Below, piece after piece: positions 2,815 to 28,375 of a stretch of 64,000 nucleotides of DNA (position 1 is its first letter; each line of letters starts with the position of its first letter). The notes beneath the pieces are model-generated. The model ran no database searches and was not told the origin of the DNA. It worked only from the letters and a program-made list of their open reading frames with translations. Source of the DNA: Hyphomicrobiales bacterium (GTDB lineage Bacteria; Pseudomonadota; Alphaproteobacteria; Rhizobiales; Rhizobiaceae). The stretch spans positions 1 through 64,000 of the forward strand of contig UCMT01000018.1 of NCBI GenBank assembly GCA_900473795.1, given 5' to 3'. A program made the position numbers and the translations under genes.

Positions 2815-3230
2815 AAACAGAGTTCTGTGCGATGAAAACAATGTCACTGAACTCGTTACTCTAAGCGCCAACATTTGCGATTCCAATCAATTCTGAGTCC
2901 GTATCTCCAATACTATTTCACAGTGGTTACGGAAGAAATGGTTCGCCGTGCATTGAAATCTCCGATGAGCGATGTTCTATGAAGCGCGAACTGATCGGTG
3001 CGGGGGAGCCGCAAATCATGATGGCCCCGAAATGCGACTAGGCGCGCTCGTATCTGCTCTACCATATCCCGGTTGGGTGGTTGAACACTGAGGTTGCCGT
3101 AATCGTTTCAAATATGACGGTGCGTCACGCCATGGGCCCGAAAATCTTGTCGCGACGGTCGCGGCGGCCGCGATATTGAAAGGCGGATACCAGCCATATA
3201 CGCTGTGGTCGAATGAGGAATCGATCAGGC
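2815..3230. other. Intergenic region without a recognised gene
   Basis: About 416 bases lie between the MetF-like gene and the first TetR gene. I see no convincing coding stretch, no strong hairpin with a T-run, and no copy of the ATAC-N6-GTAT operator found elsewhere in the island. It should contain the promoter of the TetR gene, but no clear -35/-10 pair stands out. Confidence 0.4.
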
Positions 3231-3881
3231 ATGGCGACGAAAATAAGCCCGGAACGGCGAGTGCAGATCGGCATGGAGAAGCGCGCGCGTACCCGGGCGA
3301 CCATCCTTTCGGCGGCGTTTCAGCTGCTCGGCCGTCCAAACGGGATGTCCACCCGCATTGAAGAAGTGTGTGGAATCGCCCTCATCTCGCGGGGAACCTT
3401 TTACAACTATTTCTCTGATATTGATGAGCTGTTCGAGGTGCTGACCTATGAAATGAGCCATGAGTTCAACGTTGCGGTGCAAGAGCTCATGGGAACACTC
3501 CCAATCTGCGCAATGCGTGTTGCGCTGGCCATCCGTTATTACCTGCATCGCGCGCGCCAAGACCACTCCTGGGGTTGGGCGATGGTCAACCTTTCCAGTG
3601 TCGGGCCCATTTTTGGTTCAGATACGTTTCAATATGCAACGGCGTCCATTCAGGAAGGCGTCGACTCGGGCGAATTCAAATTGCAAAGCGTCATCATCGG
3701 ACGGGACATGATGATTGGCACCGTGCTCGCGTCGATGACAACGCTTCTCCGGCAGGAGCAGGAGTACGATCATCCTGAAAAAGTTGTGCGCCAGATTCTG
3801 TCGGCCTTCCAGGTGCCGGCTTCCATCATCGACGACTGCGTGGCGATCGAATTGCTCGATTTGCCACTCCACCTGCCTTAA
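3231..3881 (+). CDS. TetR/AcrR-family transcriptional regulator
   Basis: This protein of about 216 residues has a typical TetR N-terminal helix-turn-helix: RARTRATILSAAFQLLG, then EEVCGIALISRGTFYNYFSDIDELF (the SRGTFYNYF recognition helix near residues 54-62). A divergent ligand-binding C-terminal domain follows. I chose the ATG at 3231 (MATKIS) over an ATG at 3213, because neither has a strong ribosome site and the later one gives a more usual N-terminus. It probably controls the neighbouring O-demethylase genes or the DoxX gene, but no operator could be tied to it. Just downstream lie transposase remnants, so its original neighbourhood may have been rearranged. Confidence 0.85.
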   Translation: MATKISPERRVQIGMEKRARTRATILSAAFQLLGRPNGMSTRIEEVCGIALISRGTFYNYFSDIDELFEVLTYEMSHEFNVAVQELMGTLPICAMRVALAIRYYLHRARQDHSWGWAMVNLSSVGPIFGSDTFQYATASIQEGVDSGEFKLQSVIIGRDMMIGTVLASMTTLLRQEQEYDHPEKVVRQILSAFQVPASIIDDCVAIELLDLPLHLP

Positions 3882-5953: not shown

Positions 5954-5990
5954 TTGACATTCCATATGGATTGTGAATACCGTATAGTAT
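5954..5990 (+). promoter_or_regulatory. Promoter/operator A: TTGACA-N17-ATAC-N6-GTAT before doxX-tetR
   Basis: TTGACA at 5954-5959 is followed after 17 bp by the palindrome ATAC-CGTATA-GTAT at 5977-5990. The 17-bp spacer contains a second inverted repeat, ATTCCATATGGATT (5959-5972). The layout is almost identical to promoter B (28 of 38 aligned positions by my hand count, B read on its minus strand) and to promoter C. It points toward the doxX and TetR genes, so the TetR protein is a natural candidate binder through autoregulation. On the opposite strand TTCACA (5977-5972) and TACGAT (5953-5948), 18 bp apart, could serve the dehydrogenase gene. Confidence 0.65.
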
Positions 5991-6065
5991 CTGAAAAGAC
6001 AAGCCCGAGGCGAGTATTTTTCCTCGAACGTGATGGACCGCCTACGGACATATGAGGAGGAAACA

Positions 6066-6416
6066 ATGCATCTGGTTCTGGTCGATTGGCTCCGCATCCT
6101 GTGCGGGATCTGGCTCATCCCCCATCTCTTCGGCAAGGGATTGCACTACAACAAAGCCGCCCTCACATTCGACGCCGCCGGCTTCAAACCCGGAAAGCTG
6201 TTCGTCGGCATCACCATGGCAATGGAGGCCGTTGCCGCAATCGGCATGACGTTCTCCATCTATCCGCGAATAGCGGCTGCCTTTGGCGCTCTCGTATTGT
6301 TGGGGGCGGGCTATGCCGTCGTCAAAATCAACGGTCCCAATTGGCGTTGGCAGAAGAGGGGTCCAGAGTATCCGGTCTTCTGGGCGTTGATTTGTTTGCT
6401 CACGGCTATTGTGTGA
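6066..6416 (+). CDS. DoxX-like small membrane protein
   Basis: This is a 116-residue protein with about four membrane segments: LVLVDWLRILCGIWLIPHLFGKG at the N-terminus, LFVGITMAMEAVAAIGMTF near 43-61, then ALVLLGAGYAVVKI and FWALICLLTAIV. It resembles short DoxX-like proteins, with the family-typical glycine and histidine in HLFGKGLH. The ATG at 6066 is chosen because AGGAGGAAAC directly precedes it; an upstream ATG at 6030 lacks this. It lies behind promoter A and is followed 57 bp later by a TetR gene, so the two are probably co-transcribed. The function is unknown. Confidence 0.75.
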   Translation: MHLVLVDWLRILCGIWLIPHLFGKGLHYNKAALTFDAAGFKPGKLFVGITMAMEAVAAIGMTFSIYPRIAAAFGALVLLGAGYAVVKINGPNWRWQKRGPEYPVFWALICLLTAIV

Positions 6417-6473
6417 CAAAGGCTTTTTGAGGTACGCCTCGGTGTCTGGATACGGCATTGACGGGATAAGCGA

Positions 6474-7091
6474 ATGGCACGGCTGACACGTGAGCAAAGT
6501 CAGGCTCTTACGAGAGGGAAACTTCTTGAATCCGCCTACGAGGTGATGGCGCGCTTCGGCTACGCTGGAGCATCGATTGAGAGAATCGCAGAGGATGCGG
6601 GATTTTCGAAGGGTGCATTCTACTCGAATTTTGCCAACAAGGAGGACATTTTCCTTCAACTCCTTGAAGGAAATGCAGGTGGCGACGTTGTCGAATTGAC
6701 GAAGCTTCTAGGCGAATGCGATGAGCCGGAGGAGCTAATCGACGTGTTGGCAAACTGGGCGAACAATCGCGGAGATGATCGAAGATGGGGCATGCTGGCT
6801 ATCGAACTCCTCCGCAGGGCGCAACATGACCACACGCTCGGAGACCGCCACATCAAGCTCTTCCGCGACCAGTGGGAGGGAGTTGGAAAAATCCTGATCC
6901 GCAAGTTGGATCTGACGGTGCAACCGCCTGCCAGCCCGTTCTACATCGGCGGTATCGTCCTGGAACTCACATATGGAGGCATCTCCAGTTTCCTGAAAGA
7001 TGGCGCGCCCGGCGACATGGTCAGGATTGTTCTCGCAGACATGTATCGCGCTTCGCGCGGCACTAAGGCCGTGGCCACGGCCGAAAACTGA
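6474..7091 (+). CDS. TetR/AcrR-family regulator, candidate controller of the island
   Basis: The 205-residue protein begins RLTREQSQALTRGKLLESAYEVMARFGYAGASIERIAEDAGFSK and continues GAFYSNFANKEDIF, a textbook TetR DNA-binding domain (residues about 8-56). The C-terminal ligand domain is divergent. GGGATAA precedes the ATG. Since the gene sits in the unit driven by promoter A, negative autoregulation is likely. The same operator form then recurs at two further promoter regions of the island, which makes this protein the best guess for their common regulator. The other TetR gene at 3231 is the alternative. The inducer, perhaps an aromatic intermediate, is not known. Confidence 0.88.
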   Translation: MARLTREQSQALTRGKLLESAYEVMARFGYAGASIERIAEDAGFSKGAFYSNFANKEDIFLQLLEGNAGGDVVELTKLLGECDEPEELIDVLANWANNRGDDRRWGMLAIELLRRAQHDHTLGDRHIKLFRDQWEGVGKILIRKLDLTVQPPASPFYIGGIVLELTYGGISSFLKDGAPGDMVRIVLADMYRASRGTKAVATAEN

Positions 7092-7211
7092 CATTGGATG
7101 CGAGGAAGCCGGCTTCGAGCCCAGGATGCACGAGGACCTGGAACATTCCTGTTGTCAGATAGACCCGCCACCGGAAGGATGCCGCATGACCGGTATGTAT
7201 CTTGCCGCGAA

Positions 7212-7532
7212 TTAGTCCTCCGGAGCGATCGCCACAACAATGCCGTCCAGTGACTGCTCAAAAGGAATCTGACAGGAGAGGCGGGAATTGTCCTGCCGAT
7301 AGTCGGACCCTTCGAGCAATTCTCTCTCGTCGACCGACGGCGTTGGCAAGTCGGCGCCCGGGGGGACGCTTTCGAAATAAATGTGACAGGTGGCGCAGGA
7401 CAGACATCCGCCGCACATAGCGAGAAGTTCGTCGAACCCGGCGTTGCGGATGTTTTCCATGATGGACATGCCGTTGCGGCCATCGAACTGGTGGAGTTCG
7501 CCGTCGCGCGTGCGGAGTGAAATCGTAGCCAT
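7212..7532 (-). CDS. [2Fe-2S] ferredoxin (adrenodoxin/putidaredoxin type)
   Basis: This is a 106-residue soluble electron carrier. The cluster ligands are visible as CGGCLSCATC (C-x5-C-x2-C, with an extra Cys in between; about residues 40-49) plus a later Cys in RLSCQIPF. Its size and the ELLEGSDYRQDNSRLSCQ block are typical of ferredoxins that serve bacterial P450s. It is the last gene of the unit aldolase-cupin-reductase-ferredoxin. Together with the reductase just upstream and the P450 at 12.1-13.3 kb it makes a complete class I P450 electron chain. The extra cysteine inside the cluster loop is a small oddity. Confidence 0.9.
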   Translation of the reverse strand: MATISLRTRDGELHQFDGRNGMSIMENIRNAGFDELLAMCGGCLSCATCHIYFESVPPGADLPTPSVDERELLEGSDYRQDNSRLSCQIPFEQSLDGIVVAIAPED

Positions 7533-7566
7533 TGTGTTTCCGTGTTCTGTTTCGCGACCTCGGGCG

Positions 7567-8808
7567 TCAATTCGTCTCGAGGGTCAATTCCTTGAGTTGT
7601 TTCGATGTATCAGCCAACTGAACGCTGCCGAGCTTCGCAGCAGTTTCAACGAGCTTCCGCCCTTGGACGTAGTCCCGAGGCGCATTCACACAGTCCAGCG
7701 CGATCACTGCTTCGTTCTTCAGATAGACGAGACTGAAGCTGCGGCTCGCCGGCTCGCCGCGCACGACGACGGCGTCGTAGCCGCAATTGAGGCCGATCGT
7801 CTGGAGCTTCAGGTCATATTGATTGGACCAGAACCAGGGCAATGCATCATAAGCTTTGAAGTTGCCGCAGATGGCTTTTGCGGCCGTCGTGGCCTGGTCG
7901 GTGGCGTTCTGTACGGACTCGACCCTGATGCCCGGACCATTGGTGAGAATCGCGCAGTCACCGACGCAATAAATGTCTGGTAGCGACGTGCGGCAGTATG
8001 CGTCGACATTCACCCCGTTGCTGCCTTGGGCACCTGCGGCCAGAAGCGGGGCGGCAGAGGGGACGATGCCGATGCCGACCACCACAATGTCTGCTTGGAG
8101 GGACTCGCGGGACTCCAGCAGAACGCCGCTCGCACGGCCGTCGCGCCCCGAGATGACTTTGACGTCGCTGTTCAGCCGGATGTCGACGCCGTGGTCCCGA
8201 TGCTCACGTTCGTAGAAGCGGGATATCGGCTCTCCGGCCACACGGGCCAGTACGCGGTTAAGCGCTTCGACAAGAACGACGTGCTTGCCGAGTTCCCGAA
8301 ACACCGCCGCCGCCTCGAGGCCGACATAGCCGCCGCCGATAATTGCGACCTTGCTGGCATCTGGGAGAACGGCCAGAAGCGCGTCACAATCGGCCTTTGA
8401 ACGGATGTAGAATATCCCGGACAACTCGCTGCCGGGGCATGAAAGCTTTCGCGGCTCCCCACCCGCGGCCCAAACCAGGCTGCGGTACGAATAACACGCG
8501 CCATTTTCCAGCGTAACCGTCTTTGCGACCGGATCGACCGCGACGACCCGCGTGCCAAGCACGAGTTCCACGTTTCGCGAACTCCAGAAATCCTGCGGTC
8601 TCAGATGCATCCGTTCGAATGTCTTCTTGCCCGCCAGATATTCCTTCGACAAGGAAGGCCGGTCGTATGGCACCTCCGGCTCAGCACCGAGCAGGGCTAT
8701 GCTTCCTTCGAAACCGGATTGACGAAGCGCAACCGCCGTTTGGCTACCGCCGTGTCCCGCGCCGACAATGATGCAATCGAAGGTGCCTGCGAAGACGTCC
8801 TGCGTCAT
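7567..8808 (-). CDS. NAD(P)H-dependent ferredoxin reductase (rhodocoxin/putidaredoxin reductase type)
   Basis: This 413-residue flavoprotein has an N-terminal FAD motif DCIIVGAGHGGSQTAVALR (about residues 11-29), a middle NAD(P) motif VAIIGGGYVGLEAAAVF near 153-169, and the FAD-binding block DIYCVGDCAI near 278-287. These are the marks of the putidaredoxin-reductase family. The ATG at 8808 is chosen because GGAAAGAGAG precedes it and the upstream cupin gene ends at 8813; a longer reading from 8913 would overlap that gene deeply. It passes electrons from NAD(P)H to the adjacent ferredoxin, and so probably to the P450 of the same regulon. Confidence 0.9.
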   Translation of the reverse strand: MTQDVFAGTFDCIIVGAGHGGSQTAVALRQSGFEGSIALLGAEPEVPYDRPSLSKEYLAGKKTFERMHLRPQDFWSSRNVELVLGTRVVAVDPVAKTVTLENGACYSYRSLVWAAGGEPRKLSCPGSELSGIFYIRSKADCDALLAVLPDASKVAIIGGGYVGLEAAAVFRELGKHVVLVEALNRVLARVAGEPISRFYEREHRDHGVDIRLNSDVKVISGRDGRASGVLLESRESLQADIVVVGIGIVPSAAPLLAAGAQGSNGVNVDAYCRTSLPDIYCVGDCAILTNGPGIRVESVQNATDQATTAAKAICGNFKAYDALPWFWSNQYDLKLQTIGLNCGYDAVVVRGEPASRSFSLVYLKNEAVIALDCVNAPRDYVQGRKLVETAAKLGSVQLADTSKQLKELTLETN

Positions 8809-8812
8809 GACA

Positions 8813-9364
8813 TCACTCTCTTTCCGCGCCGATGAGGATGAAGCACATGGTGGCGGGCTTGTCGCTCCTGTTGCGCCATGCGTGACGCGTGCCGCATTGA
8901 ACGACGATGTCACCTTGCTTCAAGAGCGTCTCTGCGCCGTCATCGAGTTCAAGCCAGACTTCGCCGTCGAGCACGATGTCATAGTCCACCGAGTTCGTCG
9001 TATGCATGCCCGGCGCGTTCGCCTCAAATGCTTGGATGAGGCCAGGGATGTGGACGGCTTGTTCCTTGAACGCTGCTTCGTGATCGACGGTTGCAAACAC
9101 AGAATCCGGGGGAAAGACCACCACCATCAATTTCGTCTCGCCGGGTTCCGGCGGAATTCTGACGTGCGGCGATGCCTGTTCGGCATGATCCTGTGGCAGG
9201 TGAGGTTTCGAAGCCGTGGCGTAGAGCACAGACGTCATATGCCCCGGTACCGACTGATAGACATGGGCATTCGGGGGTGGTCCGTCGCTGACGAAAACGG
9301 ACTTGCCGTTCCTCAATCCGGTGACCACGCGGCGCGGAACGCGAATTTGCGCTTCCTTACTCAT
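8813..9364 (-). CDS. Cupin-domain protein
   Basis: This is a 183-residue protein with one conserved cupin barrel in its second half: [18 protein letters not shown] (about residues 118-135), [15 protein letters not shown], then [18 protein letters not shown] (152-169). The histidines and acidic residues there could bind a metal. Such stand-alone cupins are common in aromatic and carboxylic-acid pathways, but the reaction is not known. The start at 9364 overlaps the end of the aldolase gene by 8 bp and has GAAAGG upstream, suggesting translational coupling. Because the island has no recognisable ring-cleavage dioxygenase, a catalytic role for this metal-binding-type protein deserves thought, although it does not look like a known extradiol enzyme. 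Confidence 0.75.
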
Positions 9365-10025
9365 AGATGAGGCCTTTCGCATTCAACTGAGGACGCATGT
9401 CGTTGATGTCCAGGCTGAGTTGGCCGGCTTCATAGAGGGCGCGCTTCTCGTCCTCCACTGCCTGACGCTTCAGCGCCTTTTCCAAGACCGACGCGGCTTC
9501 GTCGCGCTTGACGACGCAGACACCGTCATCGTCGGCGACAATCACGTCACCGGGTTCGATTGCCACTCCGGCGCAAACGATAGGAACTTGGACGTTGGCC
9601 AAGGTCTCCTTGACGGTGCCCTGAGCCGATATCGCCTTGGCCCAGACGGGAAATTTCATCGCCCTGAGGTCGGCAACATCTCGCACGCCGGCGTCGATGA
9701 TCAAGCCGAGGATTCTCCGCGCCTTGCACGACGTCGCCAGCAGATCACCGAAATATCCGTCCGTGCACGGCGACGTTGGGGCGACGACCAGGATGTCACC
9801 CGGCTCGGCCATTTCGAGCGCGACGTGGATCATCCAGTTGTCGCCAGGGGGAACCTCGCAGGTCAACGAGGTGCCGCCGATCCGCGCGCCGTCGATGATC
9901 GGGCGCAGATGCGAGGCGAGCAGGCCTTTGCGCCCCTGCGCTTCATGAACCGTGGCGACGCCCAATTTGCCCAAAGCTTCGCACACCGCGCGGTCGGTCC
10001 GCGCCGTTTTCGTGACGACTTTCAC
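9357..10025 (-). CDS. ligK: 4-Carboxy-4-hydroxy-2-oxoadipate aldolase-like protein (LigK/GalC, RraA fold)
   Basis: This 222-residue protein of the RraA/HMG-aldolase family has [12 protein letters not shown] (about residues 23-34), [50 protein letters not shown] (about 90-116) and the [12 protein letters not shown] block. The G-x-x-G-D-L-L and D-x-G-x-R-D elements are the family's metal and pyruvate site. In the protocatechuate 4,5-cleavage and gallate routes such an enzyme splits the LigJ product into pyruvate and oxaloacetate. A LigJ-like gene nearby supports this. It starts with GTG behind a strong GGGAGGAAA, and is the first gene behind promoter B. A second family member lies at 30.6 kb. 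Confidence 0.82.
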
Positions 10026-10076
10026 TCGATTTCCTCCCGGGCGAGACTAATAAATCCTAAGTCCTCGCCGCTACAA

Positions 10077-10113
10077 ATACCAGTTAGTATGCAAATTCCA
10101 ATTGGAATGTCAA
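10077..10113 (-). promoter_or_regulatory. Promoter/operator B before the aldolase-ferredoxin unit
   Basis: Read on the minus strand, TTGACA (10113-10108) is followed after 17 bp by ATAC-TAACTG-GTAT (10090-10077). The spacer carries the perfect 14-bp palindrome ATTCCAATTGGAAT (10095-10108). Order, spacing and most bases match promoter A, and the ATAC-N6-GTAT element with the same spacing recurs in promoter C. It lies 52 bp upstream of the GTG of the aldolase gene and separates that unit from the P450 operon behind it. Confidence 0.68.
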
Positions 10114-10147
10114 TCGGAATAACAGAATCCAACCTTCTGCGCGCGGC

Positions 10148-11077
10148 TCATTTCGCCGGCTGATGGCCAAGTGCGACGTCGAGATGAGCACGGTCGAACA
10201 GGCCCGCCGCGGCGCTCCTTGCAGACTCGCTGAGAAGGTTTGCGCGGATCATCAGATCGACTGTCGTTTCCAACGCTTTTCCCGGGATGGAGAGATCGGT
10301 GGGCCACATCCCCATGTCGCGCATGTAACGAAGGCCACGCAGTGCGAGGTCGGAGTCGTCTTTGGTGGTTATCCGTTGGAAGATGGGGAGCGTGATGTCT
10401 TCTTTCGAAGGATCATTGGTGATCTCATACGCTTCGAGCAGAGCCTGGAGAAAGCGAACGACTACAGCGCTGTTTTTCTCGAGCCAGCTCTTCCGTCCGA
10501 TGATCGCGGCGAACACGATCTCAGGGATGACATCGTTGATCTCGCCGATGAGATTGTAGCCTTCTCGCTCCGCAAGGAAATTCCAAGGGGCGGGCTGAGG
10601 AGCGCAATCGATTTCTCCAGCCTGCAATGCCTCCCAACGCTTCGTGTGGATGCCTGCGAGTTCGAACTCGTAATCACCCGGATACTTGAGCCCCTCTTGG
10701 GCAAGAAGAAGCTGGGTGTAGATGGCAGTGCCTTCGGTCAGAGACGACGTGCCGACCCTTTTCCCCTTCAGCTCTTTGATCGACTTGATCGATGAATGTG
10801 CCACGATCGACATCGGAAGCCTGTTGGAGTTGGAAGCGATCGTTCGCAGCTCTCCGCCCTGGACGAAATTCGACACGGCTCCTTCCGGTGGCGTGATTGC
10901 CAGATCAGCTTCTCCTTCGAGGACTGCGGTGGTGGCCTTGTCCACCGTTCCCATTTTCTGGTACTGGATGGACAGCCCGTGCTTGGCAAAAATTCCATGC
11001 TCTTCGGCAACGAAGACGGGGAGCCAATTAAAACCCTGCGCCCCGCCTGCAAGGCTAAGCTGTGTCGTCGACGTCAT
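10148..11077 (-). CDS. NMT1/THI5-like (type 2 periplasmic-binding-protein fold) protein without signal peptide
   Basis: This is a 309-residue protein with the two-lobed binding-protein pattern: FNWLPVFVAEEHGIFAKHGL near residues 16-35, ATTAVLEGEADLAITPPEGA near 48-67, KELKGKRVGTSSLTEG near 100-115 and GEIDCAPQPAPWN. It looks like a nitrate/taurine-type solute-binding protein. However, the likely start (11077, with GGGAG upstream) gives MTSTTQLSLAGG, with no signal peptide or lipobox, and no cognate permease or ATPase lies nearby. The upstream extension to 11197 does not provide one either. It follows the LigJ gene by 31 bp. Some proteins of this fold, such as 4,5-dihydroxyphthalate decarboxylase, are cytosolic enzymes, so a catalytic role is an alternative. 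Confidence 0.72.
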   Translation of the reverse strand: MTSTTQLSLAGGAQGFNWLPVFVAEEHGIFAKHGLSIQYQKMGTVDKATTAVLEGEADLAITPPEGAVSNFVQGGELRTIASNSNRLPMSIVAHSSIKSIKELKGKRVGTSSLTEGTAIYTQLLLAQEGLKYPGDYEFELAGIHTKRWEALQAGEIDCAPQPAPWNFLAEREGYNLIGEINDVIPEIVFAAIIGRKSWLEKNSAVVVRFLQALLEAYEITNDPSKEDITLPIFQRITTKDDSDLALRGLRYMRDMGMWPTDLSIPGKALETTVDLMIRANLLSESARSAAAGLFDRAHLDVALGHQPAK

Positions 11078-11108
11078 GTGGATTACTCCCGGAGGATGAT
11101 GGACCTGT

Positions 11109-12134
11109 TCACAGGTTCCGGTGTTGAAGTTTCTTGTGGAGCAGTGGGTAGACGCTCCTTGCGTTGCCTTCGAAGACGGCGTGTCTGTCCGCGTCACTCA
11201 GGCCCAACTGATCGATGTATCGTTTCGTGTCGTCGAAGGGATGCCCGGTCTCGGGATCAATCGCTTTCACAGCGCCGAGCAGTTCCGAGCCGAACAAAAT
11301 GTTCTTGTTGTCGACAACCCGGAACAAAGTGTCGATTCCGGCCTGGTGATAGACGCAGGTATCGAAAAACAAGTTGTTCATGAGATGCTCATCGATTCCT
11401 GGCTTCTCAAGCATGATCGACAGGCCGCGATAGCGCCCCCAGTGGTACGGCGCGGCACCGCCGCCGTGCGGAATAATCAACTTGAGTTTGGGATGCCGCT
11501 CGAACAGATCGCCCTCGATGAGCTGCATGAACACGGCGGTATCCGCATTGATATAGTGTGCGCCCGTGGTGTGCAGGCAACGTTCGCAGGACCCTGAAAC
11601 GTGGATCATCGCGGGCACTTCGAGCGCGATCATGGCTTCCCAGAGAGGGTCCCACCATTCGTCATGGACCGGAGGCGCGCTCCAGCGTCCGCCCGACGGG
11701 TCGGGGTTGAGGTTGCAGCCCACGAAACCGTGGCCGACACAGCGCTCCAATTCTGAGATCACGGCCGAAAGGTCACCATCGACCGTCTGCGGCAGCTGGC
11801 AGACGGCGGCGAAATTGTCCGGGAACATGTCCACGATCCGCTTGATGTTATCGTTGGAGACCTGCGCCCATTCCTTCGCAATCCCAACGCCAGGAACGTG
11901 GTGTCCCATCCCGGAGGCCCTCGGGCTGAGGAGCGTTACATGTGAACCACGTTCCCGCTGGATCATGAGCTGGTTCGCCTCGATAATCTCGTAGAGTTGC
12001 TTGTCGGGAATATCCGCGTAGACGGGTCGCTCCGAAGATTTGCCTTCTGCGTAGGCGACCTGAGCCTTGCGAAACGCGTGATGCTCCGGCGGCTCGGTTG
12101 TGAAATGGCCGTGGCAGTCGATGATGAGGGTCAT
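11109..12134 (-). CDS. ligJ: 4-Oxalomesaconate hydratase-like amidohydrolase (LigJ)
   Basis: This 341-residue amidohydrolase-superfamily enzyme closely follows the LigJ pattern: IIDCHGHFTTEP at the N-terminus (metal-binding H-x-H near residues 7-9), the SPRASGMGHHVPG block, GFVGCNLNPDPSGGRW, VPAMIHVSGSCERCLHTTGAHY, PHGGGAAPYHWGR and FFDTCVYHQAGID. LigJ hydrates 4-oxalomesaconate to 4-carboxy-4-hydroxy-2-oxoadipate in the protocatechuate 4,5-cleavage and gallate routes. The product is the substrate of the LigK-like aldolase encoded nearby. The ATG at 12134 overlaps the P450 stop codon as ATGA, so the two are translationally coupled. The family assignment is firm; in vivo substrate is inferred. 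Confidence 0.88.
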   Translation of the reverse strand: MTLIIDCHGHFTTEPPEHHAFRKAQVAYAEGKSSERPVYADIPDKQLYEIIEANQLMIQRERGSHVTLLSPRASGMGHHVPGVGIAKEWAQVSNDNIKRIVDMFPDNFAAVCQLPQTVDGDLSAVISELERCVGHGFVGCNLNPDPSGGRWSAPPVHDEWWDPLWEAMIALEVPAMIHVSGSCERCLHTTGAHYINADTAVFMQLIEGDLFERHPKLKLIIPHGGGAAPYHWGRYRGLSIMLEKPGIDEHLMNNLFFDTCVYHQAGIDTLFRVVDNKNILFGSELLGAVKAIDPETGHPFDDTKRYIDQLGLSDADRHAVFEGNARSVYPLLHKKLQHRNL

Positions 12135-13321
12135 CACGCATCCCACTTCGCAGGAAGTTCGGAGATGCCGCGGAAGCGCCAGCCTTTGCCTCGCATTTCC
12201 TTTGCCGGGTCGAGCCGCAGATTGGGCAATTGTGCGAACGCCTCCTCAAGAGCGATCTCGCCCATGGCACGCGAGAGGAAGTGCCCTGAACAGAAGTGTG
12301 GCCGGAAGCCGAACGACAGATGTTGCTTCTTCTTGCGGAACATGTCGAACTGGTCGGCATTCTCGAACCGGGCTTCGTCGCGGTTGGCAGAGCCCATAAC
12401 GATGGCGACCGAGGATCCCTTCGGAATGACCGTTCCGGCAAGCTCGAAGTCCTCCCTGGCAACGCGGGGCGTTACACCGATGGGAGCGATCCACCGCAGG
12501 CCTTCGTCGAATGCGCGCATTGCATTGTCGCCCGGCGCGCTCGCCATGATTTTCGCCTGCGCCGGATTTGTAAGAACGCCAGCGCAAGCGTTTGCTGCAG
12601 CATGACCAGGCTCCTGCAGGCCGCCAAGGATGATGACCCGCATCGTCGGAGAAATCTCGTCCCAGCTGCGGACTTCGCCCTTCGGCATTCCGCCGTACAT
12701 CACGTGGCTGAGAAGCGAGTTGTTGGGTTTCGAGAGGCACGCCTGGTAGAGATCGCCCATCTGCTTGTCGATGTCCACGAGTGCTCGATCGAGACGCTGC
12801 CAGACGGCCGGGTCATTGTTGACATTCTGCAAACCGAGAGCCATGGCATGGAACCATTCCACCAGCGTTTCATTCGGCGTTTCCTTAAGGCCGATGACAT
12901 CGCCGATGCATCGGACTGAAATCGGCTCGAAGAGTTCCGTTGTGAGGTTTGCCCCGCTCTGTTCCTTGATGGCATCGATGTAGCGCTGGACGACCGGGCG
13001 CGTGAGCGCTTCCACGAAGGAGCGGACGCGTTCCTGGGTGAGGTTGGCATCAATGCCTTCGCGAAGGCATTGATGTTCATCGCCGGACATCGTCAAAACG
13101 TTCGGCATGCCCATCACGCGGGCTTCCGGGCGATCCGTCGACCCCGACGGCCCGAAAATCTTGTCGTTGCCGCCAATTGACCGGCAGTCGTCGAAGCGCG
13201 TGATGAAATATTCTTTCGTACCGTCGAAGAATGCGACGGGCTGTTCTTTGCGCAGCCGCGCATAGACGGGGTAGGGGTCTCTATAGAGATTTTCCCCAGT
13301 CAACTCCGTGTGTTTCTCCAC
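12134..13321 (-). CDS. Cytochrome P450 resembling GcoA (CYP255), probable aromatic O-demethylase
   Basis: This 395-residue soluble P450 has the heme-binding loop FGFRPHFCSGHFLS (Cys near residue 350), the E-x-x-R helix FDEGLRW and an unusual I-helix LGGLQEPGHAA in place of the common AGxDT. The QEPGH element, the PISVRCIGDVIGL block, the short GMPKGEVRS loop before the I-helix and the WRFRG segment near the end all recall GcoA, the guaiacol O-demethylase, as far as I remember that sequence. GcoA uses a fused reductase (GcoB); no such gene is seen here, but a separate ferredoxin and reductase are encoded in the island. The GTG at 13321 is chosen because GGAGGAAG precedes it. It is the first gene of the P450-ligJ-binding protein operon. 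Confidence 0.85.
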   Translation of the reverse strand: MEKHTELTGENLYRDPYPVYARLRKEQPVAFFDGTKEYFITRFDDCRSIGGNDKIFGPSGSTDRPEARVMGMPNVLTMSGDEHQCLREGIDANLTQERVRSFVEALTRPVVQRYIDAIKEQSGANLTTELFEPISVRCIGDVIGLKETPNETLVEWFHAMALGLQNVNNDPAVWQRLDRALVDIDKQMGDLYQACLSKPNNSLLSHVMYGGMPKGEVRSWDEISPTMRVIILGGLQEPGHAAANACAGVLTNPAQAKIMASAPGDNAMRAFDEGLRWIAPIGVTPRVAREDFELAGTVIPKGSSVAIVMGSANRDEARFENADQFDMFRKKKQHLSFGFRPHFCSGHFLSRAMGEIALEEAFAQLPNLRLDPAKEMRGKGWRFRGISELPAKWDA

Positions 13322-13445
13322 CTTACTTCCTCCCGTTGCCTGCATCCACAGGTCTTCCGATTCAATTGATCGCCATCAACTCCCATACGGTGGCGAGCTC
13401 CACGTCGTCGCCTCCTTCGGCGGGCCCTCCCGGCACGATTGACAC

Positions 13446-13504
13446 TTGACATACCGAAAAGACTTCGGATACGGATAGGTATCCAAAGCGGGGATGGCTG
13501 TCAA
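13446..13504. promoter_or_regulatory. Bidirectional promoter/operator C between the P450 and liv operons
   Basis: Toward the liv genes, TTGACA (13446-13451) is followed after exactly 17 bp by ATAC-GGATAG-GTAT (13469-13482), which extends to the inverted repeat GGATAC/GTATCC. Toward the P450 gene, TTGACA on the minus strand (13504-13499) stands 16 bp from the same palindrome. One operator therefore covers the -10 regions of both divergent promoters. An overlapping inverted repeat, ACCGAA/TTCGGA, lies at 13453-13468. This fits joint control of uptake and O-demethylation by one repressor. Confidence 0.68.
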
Positions 13505-13554: not shown

Positions 13555-14346
13555 GTGAGTGAGAGCAGCTTAAACGTGGCTCAACCCGTGCTACAGGCGC
13601 GGGATGTTTCGGTGCAATTCGGGGGTGTCCAAGCGCTTTCGGACGTCTCCGTTTCGGTGCGAGCGGGCGAGATTTGCGGCCTCATCGGTCCCAATGGTGC
13701 GGGCAAGAGCACGTTTCTTAACGCAGTGACCCGTCTCGCAAGCTACGGCACTGGAACGATCATGCTCGACGGAACGCCAATCGAAGGCGCGAAGGTGCGT
13801 GACATGATCGGACTGGGTGTCGCGCGCACATTCCAGAACCTGGGTATCTACGCCTCGATGACGGTCCTGGAGAACGTCATGCTCGGAGGACACCACCAGT
13901 TTGGCGGCAGGTTCGCTCAGACCATTTTCAATCCGATGAGTTCGGGCGCGCGGGAGCGTGCCGCGCGCGTGAAAGCAATGACTGTGCTCGAGGAGATGGG
14001 AATGGCCGATGTGGCCAATACAATCGCGGGCGCTCTGCCATATCCCTTGCAGAAGCGGATGGAAATCGCCCGGGCGCTCGCCGCCGAACCGAAGATTTTG
14101 TTGCTGGATGAGCCAGCAGGCGGATTGACGCACGGGGAAGTCCACGAATTTGGCGAGCTTGTCGACAAGGTGAGACGCAGCCGTAATCTGTCGATCCTCC
14201 TGATCGAACATCACATGGGCCTCGTCATGGGTCTCTGTGACCGAATTTTCGTGTTCCACCTCGGGCGTAATCTGGCCGAAGGCAAGCCCGAAGAAATCAA
14301 GTCGAATGAAGCGGTAATTTCCGCCTACCTCGGGAGGGCCGCGTGA
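13555..14346 (+). CDS. livG: Branched-chain-type ABC transporter ATP-binding protein LivG
   Basis: This is a 263-residue cytoplasmic ATPase. Walker A GPNGAGKST is near residues 45-53, the signature region reads LPYPLQKRMEIARAL (typical of LivG, where the LSGG is degenerate), and Walker B is ILLLDEPAGGL. The GTG start at 13555 follows GGGAGGAAATCC; an earlier in-frame TTG at 13513 has no such site. It is the first of five overlapping genes (livG, livF, livH, livM, livK). In this island the importer more likely takes up an aromatic acid than leucine, as several Liv-type systems in related bacteria do; that is inference. Confidence 0.92.
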   Translation: MSESSLNVAQPVLQARDVSVQFGGVQALSDVSVSVRAGEICGLIGPNGAGKSTFLNAVTRLASYGTGTIMLDGTPIEGAKVRDMIGLGVARTFQNLGIYASMTVLENVMLGGHHQFGGRFAQTIFNPMSSGARERAARVKAMTVLEEMGMADVANTIAGALPYPLQKRMEIARALAAEPKILLLDEPAGGLTHGEVHEFGELVDKVRRSRNLSILLIEHHMGLVMGLCDRIFVFHLGRNLAEGKPEEIKSNEAVISAYLGRAA

Positions 14347-15059
14347 CCCTCCTTCAAATCAAGGATCTTTCGGCCTTCTACGGACGCACGCAGGCTCTCT
14401 TCAACTGTTCCTTCGACGTGTCCGAAGGGGAGTTCATCGCGCTCCTCGGATCAAACGGAGCTGGCAAGACGACGATGCTGCGGGCTCTCTCCGGTCTGCT
14501 GCACTTCGAAGGTTCCATAGCCTACGCGGGAACGTCGCTTGGGAAGGTGTCACCCCAGAGGCGGCTGGAACTCGGCATCGCGCACATACCGCAGGGCCGG
14601 GGAACTTTCACCGAGTTCACGGTTGACGAAAACCTGTCGCTAGGAGCCACGATCGTGACCAGCAGGTCGCAGATCAAGGAAGACAAGGAGCGGTGGTACG
14701 ACGCTTTCCCCAGACTGAAGGAACGACGGGACCAACTCGCCGGAAACTTGAGCGGCGGCGAGCAGCAGATGCTGGCCGTGGCGCGCGCGCTCATGTCGCG
14801 CCCCAAATTGCTGATGTGTGACGAGCCGTCGCTGGGACTGGCTCCGTCCATAACCCAGGAAATATTGACGATATTCAAGACACTGCATCGCGATCACGGC
14901 ATGACGTTGCTGGTGGTCGAGCAGAACGTGGACATCACGCTTCAATATGCGGACAGAGCTTTCGTCATCGAGGCGGGGCAGATCGTGGCCAGCGGTACAG
15001 CCGTGGAAATGGTTAACAACGAAGACATCAAAAAATCTTACCTGGGAGTCGCCGGATGA
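14343..15059 (+). CDS. livF: Branched-chain-type ABC transporter ATP-binding protein LivF
   Basis: This is a 238-residue ATPase and the partner of LivG. Walker A GSNGAGKTT is near residues 36-44, the signature LSGGEQQMLAVARAL near 138-152 and Walker B LLMCDEPSLGLAP near 158-170. The GTG start overlaps the LivG stop codon (GTGA), which means translational coupling. Length and motifs are ordinary for LivF. Confidence 0.93.
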   Translation: MTLLQIKDLSAFYGRTQALFNCSFDVSEGEFIALLGSNGAGKTTMLRALSGLLHFEGSIAYAGTSLGKVSPQRRLELGIAHIPQGRGTFTEFTVDENLSLGATIVTSRSQIKEDKERWYDAFPRLKERRDQLAGNLSGGEQQMLAVARALMSRPKLLMCDEPSLGLAPSITQEILTIFKTLHRDHGMTLLVVEQNVDITLQYADRAFVIEAGQIVASGTAVEMVNNEDIKKSYLGVAG

Positions 15060-15937
15060 GCCTCTTTTTCCAGCTCGTCGTCAGCGGGCTGACCACTGGA
15101 GCGATTTACGCCGCTCTCGCCCTTGCACTGGTTCTGATTTTCAGGGCGACCAATGTCGTCAACTTCGGCCAAGGAGAAATGGCGACATTTTCCGCTTACT
15201 GTACATGGCAATTGATGGAGTGGGGCGCTCCGCTCTGGGTGGCCCTGCTCGTCAGCCTCGCCGGCTCTTTCGCAGTGGGCGTCATTACCTTTCGTGCGGT
15301 GATCAGGCCTCTGATGTCCGCTCCCGTTGAGGCGATCGTCGTGGTCACCCTGGGTATATTTGTCCTGTTCCAGGCTGCCGGCATGTGGCTGTGGGGAGCA
15401 GAACAGCGCTCCTTTCCCAGCCTGTTCCCCGATGGCGGCTTCAACGTAGGCGATGTGCGTATTTTGAATTCGACCGTGGGCACCCTTGTGATTTTGGTGA
15501 TGATCGCAGTGCTGATGGGATTGATCTTCAGTTTCACGCGTCTGGGTCTCTCAATGCGCGCCGCCGCATTCGACCACGCCAGGAGCGTGCTGGTTGGCGT
15601 GAATGTCGAACGCATGCTCATGCTGGGTTGGGGTTTTGCCGCGGTCATAGGCGCATTTGCCGCCATCCTGATTGCACCAAGACTGTTCCTCAATCCGACG
15701 ATGATGACGCCGATCCTCTTTTACGGGTTGGCCGCAGCGACCCTCGGCGGCTGGGACAGTCCCCTCGGAGCGATCGCGGGTGGATTGATTGTCGGCGTGG
15801 CCGAGAGCCTCGGCGCGAGCTACTTGTCTTTCATCGGCGCGGACATGCGCATCGCGGTGCCTATCGCCCTCACTTTGCTCATTTTGCTCGTGAAGCCCGT
15901 CGGCCTGTTCGGCTCCTATAAGGTGACAAAGTTATGA
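15056..15937 (+). CDS. livH: Branched-chain-type ABC transporter permease LivH
   Basis: This 293-residue inner-membrane permease has about eight hydrophobic segments. The N-terminal LVVSGLTTGAIYAALALALVLIF, FGQGEMATFSAY and the C-terminal GGWDSPLGAIAGGLIVGVAESL block are typical of LivH. It pairs with LivM to form the channel. The ATG overlaps the LivF stop as ATGA. Confidence 0.92.
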   Translation: MSLFFQLVVSGLTTGAIYAALALALVLIFRATNVVNFGQGEMATFSAYCTWQLMEWGAPLWVALLVSLAGSFAVGVITFRAVIRPLMSAPVEAIVVVTLGIFVLFQAAGMWLWGAEQRSFPSLFPDGGFNVGDVRILNSTVGTLVILVMIAVLMGLIFSFTRLGLSMRAAAFDHARSVLVGVNVERMLMLGWGFAAVIGAFAAILIAPRLFLNPTMMTPILFYGLAAATLGGWDSPLGAIAGGLIVGVAESLGASYLSFIGADMRIAVPIALTLLILLVKPVGLFGSYKVTKL

Positions 15938-16932
15938 GTGACGGATCTCGATCGCGCCTGGTCAAGTTTGGCCTGTTTGCCGCGGCGGCGGTTCTGCTGC
16001 CACTTCTCCTCCCCGGCTATGCGCTGCAGCAGGTTTGCATCGCCATCGCATATGCGATCGCCATCATGGGCCTCAATCTGTTGATGGGATTTGGCGGACA
16101 GATCTGCCTCGCGCAGGGCGCGCTTTTCGGCGTCGGAGCCTATGTGACCGCGATCTTGAATTCGGACTACGGCATCCACCCCATCGCGACCTTGCCGATG
16201 TCCGCAACTGCGACCGCTTTGGTTGGTTTGGTCGTGGGGCTTCCGGCACTCCGTCTTCAGGGCCTTCAGCTCGCGATCGTGACATTCGGCATTGCTGCTG
16301 CATTTCCACAACTGTTGCTGAAAATGGGTGGCATAACCGGCGGCGTTTCGGGACTCCCGATTGATGGTCTGGAAGCCCCCACCTGGGTTCCCGTCAGCCC
16401 GGAACTTTGGCTCTACGTCGTTTCGCAGTGCTGCGCAGGGATCGCGGCCCTGCTAGTGACCCTGATGCTATTCGGCGATGTTGGGCGTGCACTGCGCGCC
16501 CAACGCGACAACGCCCAAATCGCCGAGGCGCTCGGCGTCAATCTGACGAAAACGCGGCTCTGGGCGTTTGCCGGAAGTTCGGCGCTCGCAGGACTAGGTG
16601 GAGGCGTATTCGCCATCATCACGGGCTTCATCAGCCCAGAGTCCTTCCTGGCGATCCTGTCGATCAACATTGTCATCGGAAGCATCGTGGGCGGTGTCAC
16701 GAGTGTCGTCGGGGCGTTTTTGGGTGGACTGTTCATGGTCTTTGTCCCCACCTGGGCCTCCGACATCAATCTGAGCCTGGGCAATTTGATCTACGGCCTT
16801 GCGCTGATCCTCATCATGATGGTCGCGCGAAACGGCGTCACTGGTTTCATCGAAAAATGGCTTTCGACGATTTTACGGAGGACCGCAGACAATACAGCGT
16901 CTGTGAAGGAAACAAGGGAGGAACTGACATGA
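15934..16932 (+). CDS. livM: Branched-chain-type ABC transporter permease LivM
   Basis: This is a 332-residue inner-membrane permease. It has the LivM features IAIMGLNLLMGFGGQICLAQGALFGVGAY (about residues 37-65), GLPALRLQGLQLAIVTFG and IAEALGVNLTKTRLWAFAGSSALAGLGG. The ATG overlaps the LivH stop as ATGA, and its own stop overlaps the livK start. No unusual features. Confidence 0.92.
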   Translation: MSDGSRSRLVKFGLFAAAAVLLPLLLPGYALQQVCIAIAYAIAIMGLNLLMGFGGQICLAQGALFGVGAYVTAILNSDYGIHPIATLPMSATATALVGLVVGLPALRLQGLQLAIVTFGIAAAFPQLLLKMGGITGGVSGLPIDGLEAPTWVPVSPELWLYVVSQCCAGIAALLVTLMLFGDVGRALRAQRDNAQIAEALGVNLTKTRLWAFAGSSALAGLGGGVFAIITGFISPESFLAILSINIVIGSIVGGVTSVVGAFLGGLFMVFVPTWASDINLSLGNLIYGLALILIMMVARNGVTGFIEKWLSTILRRTADNTASVKETREELT

Positions 16933-18161
16933 GTCTTATTTCCAAGCTGAAGAGTTGCACGAAGCAGCTGGCCATGACGGTGCTGCTGACGGCGTCTCAA
17001 GCCCATGCAGCCGAACCGTCGCCGGGCGTGGCCGACGACACGATAAGGATCGGCGTGACCGGACCTCTGACTGGCCCCGTTGCGGTGGTCGGAGCTGTCG
17101 CCGAGGGCATCCGCGCGCGGATCGAGCAGGTGAATGCCGAGGGCGGTGTGAAGATGGGGGACGGCAAGACCCGCAAGATCGAGCTCGTCATTGAAGACGA
17201 TGGCCTCGATCCGCAGCGCACGCTGGCCAACGTTCGCAAGATGGTCGAGCAGGATGAGGTATTCGCCCTGGTCGGCACGGCCGCCACGCCGAACAACCTC
17301 GCGATCGGACGCTACATCAATCAGAAAAAAGTACCCAACGTCTTCATGTATTCGGGTGTCCATGCCCTGAACGCTCCCGATTGGGAAATCGGCTTTGTTC
17401 CGTCGTTTGCAACCGAGGCCGATTCTTTTGCAGAGTATCTGAAGGTCGGTAGGCCCGACGCGAAAGTCGCCTTTCTCTACCTGAATACCGAGACGGGCGA
17501 AATCTTCATGAAGGCTTTCGACAGGGCGATCGAGGGGACCTCGATCAGGGTTGTCGATCGTCAGCCTGTCACGTCGCAGGATCCGACGGTTGAAACGCAA
17601 CTGAATACTCTCAAGGCTTCTGGCGCGGACACCTTGGTGATCATAGCCGCCCCGCGTCAGGGCGGTGAAGCCATTCGTTTCCAATCCGAGAGTGGTTGGA
17701 AGCCGCTCACCCTGGTGACCAATCTGTCGTCGGCGTATCCCATACTTCAGTCGGTCGGGCTTGAGAATGCCAAGGGCATCATTACCTCCGATTTCCTGAA
17801 GCCGATCGTCGGCGACAAGAAGACGGATGATAAGGGCATTGACCTGTACCTGGACGCAGCTGCGGCATCCAAGGTGAACTTCAATGTCGCCAACACCATC
17901 GGTCAGACTGGCTACGCCATCGGCGATGCTTTGGTTCAAGCGCTGGAAAAACTCAAAGAGCCAACGCGCGAAGAGTTGATGAAAGTCGTCCGCAATATTG
18001 ACGGATGGCAAAATCCGCTCCTTCCGGCCGATATCAAGATCACGACCAAGGAAGGTTCAGACATCTTTCCGATTGAGGCACTGCAGCTCTATCAGTTCGA
18101 TGGTCAGAAGTACGTGCCCCTCGGTGGAACGCTTGATTTCGAGGCAGAGACAAAGGAGTAG
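16929..18161 (+). CDS. livK: Branched-chain-type ABC transporter substrate-binding protein LivK
   Basis: This 410-residue periplasmic binding protein begins with a signal peptide (KLKSCTKQLAMTVLLTASQAHA, cleaved near residue 25). It continues with the family block DDTIRIGVTGPLTGPVA and NAEGGVKMGDGKTRKIELVIEDDGLDPQRT. The ATG at 16929 overlaps the LivM stop (ATGA), which fixes the start; the reading frame is open much further upstream but that part is not coding. Type 1 binding proteins of this family bind amino acids, amides or aromatic acids. The island suggests an aromatic ligand. Confidence 0.92.
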   Translation: MSLISKLKSCTKQLAMTVLLTASQAHAAEPSPGVADDTIRIGVTGPLTGPVAVVGAVAEGIRARIEQVNAEGGVKMGDGKTRKIELVIEDDGLDPQRTLANVRKMVEQDEVFALVGTAATPNNLAIGRYINQKKVPNVFMYSGVHALNAPDWEIGFVPSFATEADSFAEYLKVGRPDAKVAFLYLNTETGEIFMKAFDRAIEGTSIRVVDRQPVTSQDPTVETQLNTLKASGADTLVIIAAPRQGGEAIRFQSESGWKPLTLVTNLSSAYPILQSVGLENAKGIITSDFLKPIVGDKKTDDKGIDLYLDAAAASKVNFNVANTIGQTGYAIGDALVQALEKLKEPTREELMKVVRNIDGWQNPLLPADIKITTKEGSDIFPIEALQLYQFDGQKYVPLGGTLDFEAETKE

Positions 18162-27586: not shown

Positions 27587-28375
27587 ATGCCCGACATCAC
27601 TCTCAATGCGCCCAAGCTTTTCGATCTTTCTGGCCAGGTCGCCTTCGTGACAGGCGCGGGCAGCGGTATTGGACAGCGTATCGCGATCGGCCTTGCGCAG
27701 TGCGGCGCCGATGTTGCCTTGCTTGACCGCCGGAATGACGACGGTCTGTCGCACACGGCGGAATTCGTTCGCCAGGCCGGGCGCCGATCCATCCAGATCG
27801 CCGCCGACGTCACCAACAAGGCATCGCTGGCGGAGGCTGTTGAGCGGACTGAAAGCGAGCTCGGCCATCTCTCCCTTGCCGTGAATGCGGCCGGGATCGC
27901 GAATGCCAATCCCGCCGAGGAAATGGAAGAAGAGCAATACCAGACGCTGATGGACATCAACCTCAAGGGCGTGTTCCTGTCATGTCAGGCCGAGGCGCGC
28001 TCCATGCTCAAGCGCGGCAAAGGCTCTATCGTCAATATCGCCTCCATGTCGGGCGTTATCGTCAATCGTGGCCTCAGCCAGTGCCACTACAACGCCTCCA
28101 AGGCGGGTGTGATCCACATGTCGAAATCCATGGCGATGGAATGGGTGGATCGCGGAATCCGGGTCAATACGATTTCGCCGGGTTATACCGCCACGCCGAT
28201 GAACACGCGACCGGAGATGGTTCACCAGACGAAGCTTTTCGAAGAACAGACACCTATGCAGCGCATGGCGACCGTCAATGAAATGGTTGGTCCCGCGGTC
28301 TTCCTGCTCTCGGACGCTGCGAGTTTCGTGACGGGTGTCGACCTTCTGGTTGACGGCGGATTCTGCTGCTGGTGA
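27587..28375 (+). CDS. Short-chain dehydrogenase/reductase 1 of the sugar operon
   Basis: This 262-residue NAD(P)-dependent enzyme has the cofactor motif VTGAGSGIGQ near residues 23-32, the NAAGIANANPAEE segment, the catalytic YNASKAG (Tyr near 167, Lys near 171) and a C-terminal GVDLLVDGGFCCW. The family includes polyol and sugar dehydrogenases. It follows the sugar ATPase gene by 24 bp with AAGGAAGAG as ribosome site, so it probably oxidises or reduces the imported sugar or polyol. The substrate is not known. Confidence 0.9.
   Translation: MPDITLNAPKLFDLSGQVAFVTGAGSGIGQRIAIGLAQCGADVALLDRRNDDGLSHTAEFVRQAGRRSIQIAADVTNKASLAEAVERTESELGHLSLAVNAAGIANANPAEEMEEEQYQTLMDINLKGVFLSCQAEARSMLKRGKGSIVNIASMSGVIVNRGLSQCHYNASKAGVIHMSKSMAMEWVDRGIRVNTISPGYTATPMNTRPEMVHQTKLFEEQTPMQRMATVNEMVGPAVFLLSDAASFVTGVDLLVDGGFCCW

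Follow-up and report, generated by a model that had tools for sequence, protein, structure and literature searches.

Organization of the island and its three promoter regions

The 64,000 nt of DNA analysed here (the window) come from contig UCMT01000018.1 of a Hyphomicrobiales bacterium (assembly GCA_900473795.1) and carry an island of genes predicted to serve the O-demethylation of aromatic compounds, in which a single promoter and operator design recurs. A search of the window for the pattern TTGACA-N17-ATAC-N6-GTAT finds three occurrences, Site A at 5954-5990 (plus strand), Site B at 10113-10077 (minus strand) and Site C at 13446-13482 (plus strand), and these are the three sites of identical spacing, on these strands, that a first-pass annotation of the sequence had reported. 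Each also lies just upstream of a transcription unit, as had been claimed, at distances of 88-112 bp counted from the first base of the site. Site A is 112 bp from the DoxX2-TetR2 unit and divergent from ADH, Site B is 88 bp from the LigK operon, and Site C lies between two divergent operons, 109 bp from livG and 101 bp from the P450 gene.

The unit behind Site A begins with DoxX2, a small membrane protein (6066-6416, plus strand; Pfam PF07681), followed by TetR2 (6474-7091, plus strand), whose N-terminal TetR helix-turn-helix scores 49.3 bits against a cut-off of 24 (PF00440) and which we propose as the repressor of the regulon from its co-occurrence with the sites. Site B precedes four minus-strand genes: LigK, a 4-carboxy-4-hydroxy-2-oxoadipate aldolase (9357-10025; two NCBIfam equivalog models over cut-off), a cupin (8813-9382; PF07883), a flavin adenine dinucleotide (FAD)-dependent reductase that is the probable redox partner of the P450 (7567-8808; Pfam Pyr_redox_2 and Reductase_C) and a ferredoxin-like protein (7212-7532) that has no Pfam match itself but whose homologues are annotated as 2Fe-2S. 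Leftwards of Site C are a cytochrome P450 (12134-13345, minus strand), with the solved chains 8u09 (1.6e-84; presumably SyoA) and the aromatic O-demethylase GcoA (about 4e-67) as nearest matches, a LigJ-like 4-oxalomesaconate hydratase of the amidohydrolase type (11109-12131, minus strand; 1.2e-135 to 6dwv) and an NMT1/THI5-like protein (10148-11080, minus strand; PF09084). Rightwards is a liv-type ATP-binding cassette (ABC) importer of five genes, LivG, F, H, M and K (13555-18161, plus strand); LivG and LivK hit liv models without reaching the cut-off, and LivF, H and M are named from sequence and gene order, their orthologues in one related locus (L084) being annotated as parts of a branched-chain amino acid ABC transporter. 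We take the gene set to read as uptake, O-demethylation and the lower part of a gallate/protocatechuate 4,5-type route.

The pattern is specific to the island. It is absent from all 100 dinucleotide-shuffled versions of the window. Across the whole genome of 6,385,884 bases (6.39 Mb), Sites A, B and C are the only exact matches, with no others at one mismatch; allowing two mismatches adds six matches elsewhere, compared with two for a reversed control pattern. Random matches across the genome would speak against a regulon, and those with 0-1 mismatch are instead confined to the three island sites. Over 38 positions Sites A and B are identical at 27, A and C at 24, and B and C at 25; the likeness noted previously between A and B stands, although the count is 27 rather than 28 of 38.

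Anatomy of the double operator

The repeated element is best described as one 14 bp palindromic operator, ATWCC-N4-GGWAT, present twice with the copies 18 bp apart. The first copy (O1) starts at site position 6 and lies over the end of the -35 hexamer and the spacer, and the second (O2) starts at position 24, over the presumed -10 element. An ATTCCA-WW-TGGAWT repeat, previously described as shared by the spacers of Sites A and B, is indeed present in both, but it is no separate element and is a second copy, displaced by 18 bp, of the ATAC-N6-GTAT operator. In Site A, O1 (ATTCC-ATAT-GGATT; 5959-5972, plus strand) and O2 (ATACC-GTAT-AGTAT; 5977-5990, plus strand) each have one mismatch to the operator consensus and coincide with peaks of palindromicity. 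O1 of Site B (10095-10108, minus strand) is a perfect palindrome without mismatches, ATTCCAATTGGAAT, and its O2 (10077-10090, minus strand) has one mismatch. O1 of Site C (13451-13464, plus strand) has an intact left half and a degenerate right half, and O2 (13469-13482, plus strand), which we propose to act on both divergent promoters, has one mismatch.

The same two-copy structure is seen when sites from relatives are compared. Eighty-two collected sites reduce to 66 distinct 37-mers, over which palindromicity is highest at position 24 (0.67), a peak partly fixed by the search pattern, and at position 6 (0.56), which is much less so, with a value of 0.50 at position 15 corresponding to an everted register between O1 and O2. 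Mean information is 0.13 bits upstream, 1.65 in TTGACA, 1.0 in O1, 0.64 between the operators, 1.35 in O2, 0.88 at positions 38-43 and 0.16 at positions 44-58, and conservation falls off at both edges of the element. The 18 bp spacing also emerges from a scan for the single operator in 31 stretches, which were picked for TetR2 or for position near a site and include near relatives. With up to two mismatches there are 285 matches forming 46 pairs at 18 bp and one each at 17, 31, 36 and 58 bp, compared with 104 matches and one pair (spacing 16) in a Markov copy of the same stretches; with up to one mismatch there are 104 matches and eight pairs, all at 18 bp, whereas the Markov copy has two matches and no pair. 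It is only the pair that is specific, and single palindromes occur at 16 places in the window's own genome (each on both strands) versus four for a control.

A more elaborate arrangement is seen at Site C, where the first-pass annotation had pointed out a second, minus-strand TTGACA near 13.5 kb and suggested that one operator could serve both the P450 and liv operons. This hexamer is present at 13504-13499, 16 bases from the O2 palindrome and at an offset corresponding to site position 54, and is the proposed -35 of the P450 operon. TGTCAA starts at site position 54 in ten of the 66 distinct sites, nine of them before a P450 gene and one between liv and DoxX1, and the next commonest offset accounts for four of the 66; a site between the P450 and liv operons, placed as Site C is, occurs in seven related loci (L053, L054, L080 and L086-L089). 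The recurrence of the opposite-strand hexamer at a fixed offset, mostly before P450, supports the suggestion that the single O2 of Site C can serve both promoters.

Conservation of sites and targets in relatives

A matrix built from 35 sites of relatives only, with those of the window excluded (together with TTAACGG-initial sequences, which reflect an overlapping opposite-strand match in L017-L019), ranks Sites A, B and C as the top three in the window, with scores of 64.5, 55.1 and 49.9. The matches that follow come from the same three sites read in reverse or out of register, 12 Markov windows score no higher than 11.9, and 1.83 Mb of Markov sequence contains no match of at least 16. Among plasmid records outside the matrix, nine of the ten fetched (of 17 with TetR2) carry sites scoring at least 28, the exception being Rhizobium sp. 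BT03.

Targets were surveyed in 31 stretches with a site score of at least 34, omitting L018, L019, L024, L026 and L029 as repeats and dropping alignments under half of the query, LivG/LivF matches below 45% identity and ADH/AdhC matches below 33%; the comparison of plasmid records used the same two identity limits, and an earlier comparison of loci dropped LivG/LivF below 40%. A site precedes DoxX2 in all 23 loci that hold it, with TetR2 the next gene in 22 (the exception being Mesorhizobium L028), and so the palindromic operator stands before TetR2's own unit in the window and in 22 of 23 DoxX2 loci, though not in L028 or BT03. A site is likewise found before livG in 13/13 loci and before P450 in 13/14. 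Other genes behind sites are DesA/LigM (3), class III formaldehyde dehydrogenase (13) and a chemoreceptor (3); where a site lies between the chemoreceptor and AdhC genes it points towards the chemoreceptor, so that control of AdhC would come from the divergent side. An Agrobacterium tumefaciens plasmid (L080), which shows the closest synteny among the records compared, has a site at the position of Site B (at 28204), whereas NMT1 and LigK of the Rhizobium loci are about 40-55 bp apart with no site between them. The same operator thus precedes several pathway operons in more than one genus, and the earlier proposal of one regulon for the island operons gains from relatives that carry equivalent sites before equivalent genes despite a shuffled gene order.

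The regulon is found on large plasmids of Rhizobium, Sinorhizobium and Agrobacterium (L080-L089), many of which have gfa, fghA, class III AdhC or pntAB nearby, and one of which also has purU and folD; in Mesorhizobium sp. L-8-3 TetR2 is chromosomal. Rhizobium also has arrays of operators, with an 18 bp period and no TTGACA, downstream of TetR2 (L023 9933-9974; L089 18838); they precede an open reading frame without Pfam or NCBIfam match and a YceI gene.

TetR2 as the probable binder

That the TetR protein encoded at 6474 binds the sites had been suggested from its place behind Site A, and comparative data now support this well. We scanned 297 genomes of the family for TetR2 orthologues (E up to 1e-40) and for the motif in its TTRACA form without mismatch. 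TetR2 is present in seven and the motif in ten, covering 7/7 genomes with TetR2 compared with 3/290 without it (Fisher p 3e-12, genome kinship ignored). The three genomes with the motif but not TetR2 have one match each, which is the chance level, because the reversed control also matches once each in 6/297 genomes. Four congeners of the window's genome contain neither TetR2, nor the motif, nor the P450. An exact site is present in each of the 13 loci from Rhizobium, Mesorhizobium and Rhizobiales whose TetR2 is 66-88% identical (L017-L029), a set that overlaps in part with the seven TetR2 genomes.

The operator can be separated from the P450. A P450 search of 13 genomes with positive controls found the gene in six (the window's own, G281, G023, G455, G526 and G596) and did not find it in G456, G099, G225 or the four congeners. 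G456 has two copies of TetR2 and an exact site, its P450 search giving no match at 1e-100, whereas the six other TetR2 genomes have the P450. G099 and G225 belong to another family and encode TetR2 homologues of 39-41% identity; beside that of G099 are two ATACC-N4-GGTAT palindromes 19 bp apart, and beside that of G225 is one good operator copy together with another in which just the right half is intact. Paraburkholderia terrae plasmid pPT365 (L085) encodes a 43% homologue and carries two operator pairs with 18 bp spacing, one (12984-13025) and the other (15300-15341) lying, in one case, before a DUF4148 gene and an efflux outer-membrane gene and, in the other, before an MFS-HlyD-TetR run, where the pair overlaps the start annotated for the MFS gene; the 36.6 kb of this plasmid that were searched gave no P450 match. 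These comparisons support well the view that the operator goes with TetR2 and not with the P450.

A model for regulation and its alternatives

The favoured scenario, to which we assign a probability of roughly 0.8, is that TetR2 represses the whole aromatic uptake and O-demethylation regulon through the double operators and is released by an inducer, which is most probably a methoxylated aromatic compound or something formed early from it. Each site would be a sigma-70-type promoter overlaid by two TetR operator copies 18 bp apart, with one TetR2 dimer on each palindrome, such that two dimers, probably binding cooperatively, exclude RNA polymerase. TetR2 would silence its own DoxX2-TetR2 operon and the LigK-cupin-reductase-ferredoxin operon, and the single O2 common to both promoters of Site C would let it shut down the P450-LigJ-NMT1 and liv importer operons as well. 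Binding of the inducer would free TetR2 from the DNA, and uptake, P450 O-demethylation and the lower ring-cleavage pathway would be switched on together. We infer repression with release by an inducer because the operators overlie the -35 and -10 regions and TetR2 appears to be autoregulated.

Several observations weigh against this scenario or temper the numbers behind it. Although TTGACA is exact in all three sites, the -10 hexamers agree with the consensus at just three or four of six positions, a promoter scan calls only Site B (TTGACA-16-CATACT), and O1 of Site C has a weak right half. Because pattern or matrix searches supplied the sites, part of the conservation of TTGACA, ATAC and GTAT is built in by the method, and the counts overstate independence, since some of the loci are closely related. 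Rhizobium sp. BT03 encodes a TetR2 of 78% identity but has neither a site of at least 28 nor an operator with up to one mismatch in the 36.6 kb fetched; its TetR2 adjoins pntAB, and neither DoxX2 nor P450 is found in that stretch. In Mesorhizobium L028 the site is by DoxX2 and the next gene is a cupin, with TetR2 about 3.5 kb away, and the second TetR2 copy of L029/G456 has no adjoining site. Likewise, the P450 gene of G596 is the one among the 14 for which the survey found no preceding site, and LigK has its own site in only 6/17 loci, standing elsewhere behind another island gene.

Of the other explanations, the one that departs least keeps the TetR2 regulon but takes the signal to be the formaldehyde that O-demethylation sets free, or one of its adducts. 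We consider it unlikely, even though a site is within 420 bp of a class III S-(hydroxymethyl)glutathione dehydrogenase gene in 13 of the 23 DoxX2 loci, and gfa, fghA or pntAB are in the same neighbourhoods. TetR2 has no conserved cysteine, and seven of 13 sequences have none at all, which makes a cysteine-based formaldehyde sensor unlikely; no site was seen in the stretches examined around the two AdhC fragments of the window's own genome, which are limited by contig ends; and the Paraburkholderia homologue sits among efflux and hydroxyquinol dioxygenase genes. The lack of a conserved cysteine together with this range of contexts therefore favours an aromatic inducer, although not decisively.

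That the sites are promoters for an alternative sigma factor, or simply strong promoters with incidental palindromes, would fit the better conservation of TTGACA than of the other symmetric arm of O1, though the search pattern itself favours TTGACA; it is made quite improbable by TTGACA-free palindromes beside the TetR2 homologues of G099 and the P. terrae plasmid and downstream of TetR2 in Rhizobium, and by the spacing of single palindromes, which peaks at 18 bp when scored without the hexamer. Still less probable is another island regulator as the binder, the obvious candidate being TetR1 (3213-3881), which is in the same island here and likewise in R. hainanense and on the A. tumefaciens plasmid; it was found in just one of the seven site-bearing genomes searched and not in the other six, whereas TetR2 is in 7/7, and TetR1 is accordingly rejected. 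Recent duplication of a promoter segment, which could account for the 27 identical positions of Sites A and B, has next to no probability left and is rejected by the unlike flanks (9-13 of 40 bases identical upstream and 7-15 of 40 at bases 44-83 among the three sites) and by conservation across genera, in which the element occupies equivalent places and information drops from 1.0-1.65 bits in the TTGACA and operator blocks to 0.13-0.16 outside.

Other candidate genes of the pathway

The island also contains an O-demethylase gene at 374, whose product matches the DesA and LigM models, both below cut-off. The operon of the NMT1/THI5-like gene, which in relatives mostly adjoins LigJ, contains no permease gene, and the encoded protein may act as an enzyme in the cytosol instead of as a binding protein. 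No LigB-type (PF02900) dioxygenase is found at 1e-10 in the window's own genome, G281, G455, G526 or G596, though LigJ and LigK are present; G456 has four PF02900 matches. A candidate for ring cleavage by an unorthodox enzyme is the conserved cupin encoded in the LigK operon. The window's own genome also includes two fragments of class III AdhC (contig C63, 19571-20242, and contig C83, 1-363), 92 and 93% identical to the query; both are confined to the N-terminal part of that protein and run up to the end of a contig.

A broader and more tentative proposal, which we regard as doubtful, is that root-nodule bacteria possess, often on plasmids, a self-contained regulon whose single TetR repressor, acting on operators spaced by 18 bp, would place uptake, demethylation of methoxylated gallate-type aromatics by the P450, removal of formaldehyde, supply of NADPH and chemotaxis under common control, with ring opening by an enzyme not of the LigB type, possibly the co-regulated cupin.

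The analysis provides a probable repressor, an operator code and a list of targets for an uncharacterised P450 route of aromatic O-demethylation found on plasmids of legume symbionts and their relatives, in many of which a formaldehyde-producing pathway is coupled with formaldehyde removal. It also flags uncharacterised enzymes (the cupin and the NMT1-like protein) as probable members of the pathway, and the operator pair is a possible inducible promoter or part for an aromatic biosensor.

Comparison with known systems

Judged by title and the start of the abstract, none of the literature matches listed is about this regulon, in a search that left subscription journals mostly uncovered. Parts of its logic have precedents. 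The TetR repressor QacR binds as two cooperative dimers and so resembles the proposed arrangement in having two dimers per operator region, but its dimers share one overlapping 28 bp repeat, whereas the window has two separate palindromes 18 bp apart.

On the enzymatic side, the GcoA/GcoB system is a P450 system that O-demethylates lignin aromatics (PMC6021390). Its reductase GcoB is described there as a single polypeptide, whereas the window encodes ferredoxin and reductase as separate genes. The word 'regulator' does not occur in the main text of that paper, and the 'tetr' matches shown from it are to tetrahydrofolate.

For control of O-demethylation, DesR of Sphingobium sp. SYK-6 represses vanillate and syringate genes, and its binding to DNA is inhibited by vanillate and syringate (PMC6888825). 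It resembles what we propose for TetR2 in that one repressor acts on similar inverted repeats at several O-demethylation promoters. However, DesR is of the MarR type, and its pathway uses LigM/DesA and the ring-cleavage enzyme DesB, the abstract naming no P450 (PMC6888825).

The closest described case in logic and half-site is, by analogy, MbdR of Azoarcus sp. CIB, the TetR repressor of the mbd (3-methylbenzoate) cluster (PMC4424350). Like TetR2 it is a TetR-family protein of an aromatic catabolic cluster, with ATAC...GTAT operators over the -10 and -35 regions of several promoters, and its own promoter has three predicted operators. The half-sites are the same, but the MbdR operator is ATAC-N10-GTAT, compared with ATAC-N6-GTAT in pairs 18 bp apart in the window. 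The match of TetR2 to the MbdR structure 4uds is confined to the DNA-binding residues 6-66 (E 5.3e-5) and is not full-length, and the MbdR inducer is an aryl-CoA of an anaerobic pathway (PMC4424350), whereas the window encodes an oxygen-dependent P450 route. The kind of switch is known, and the present circuit appears to be new.

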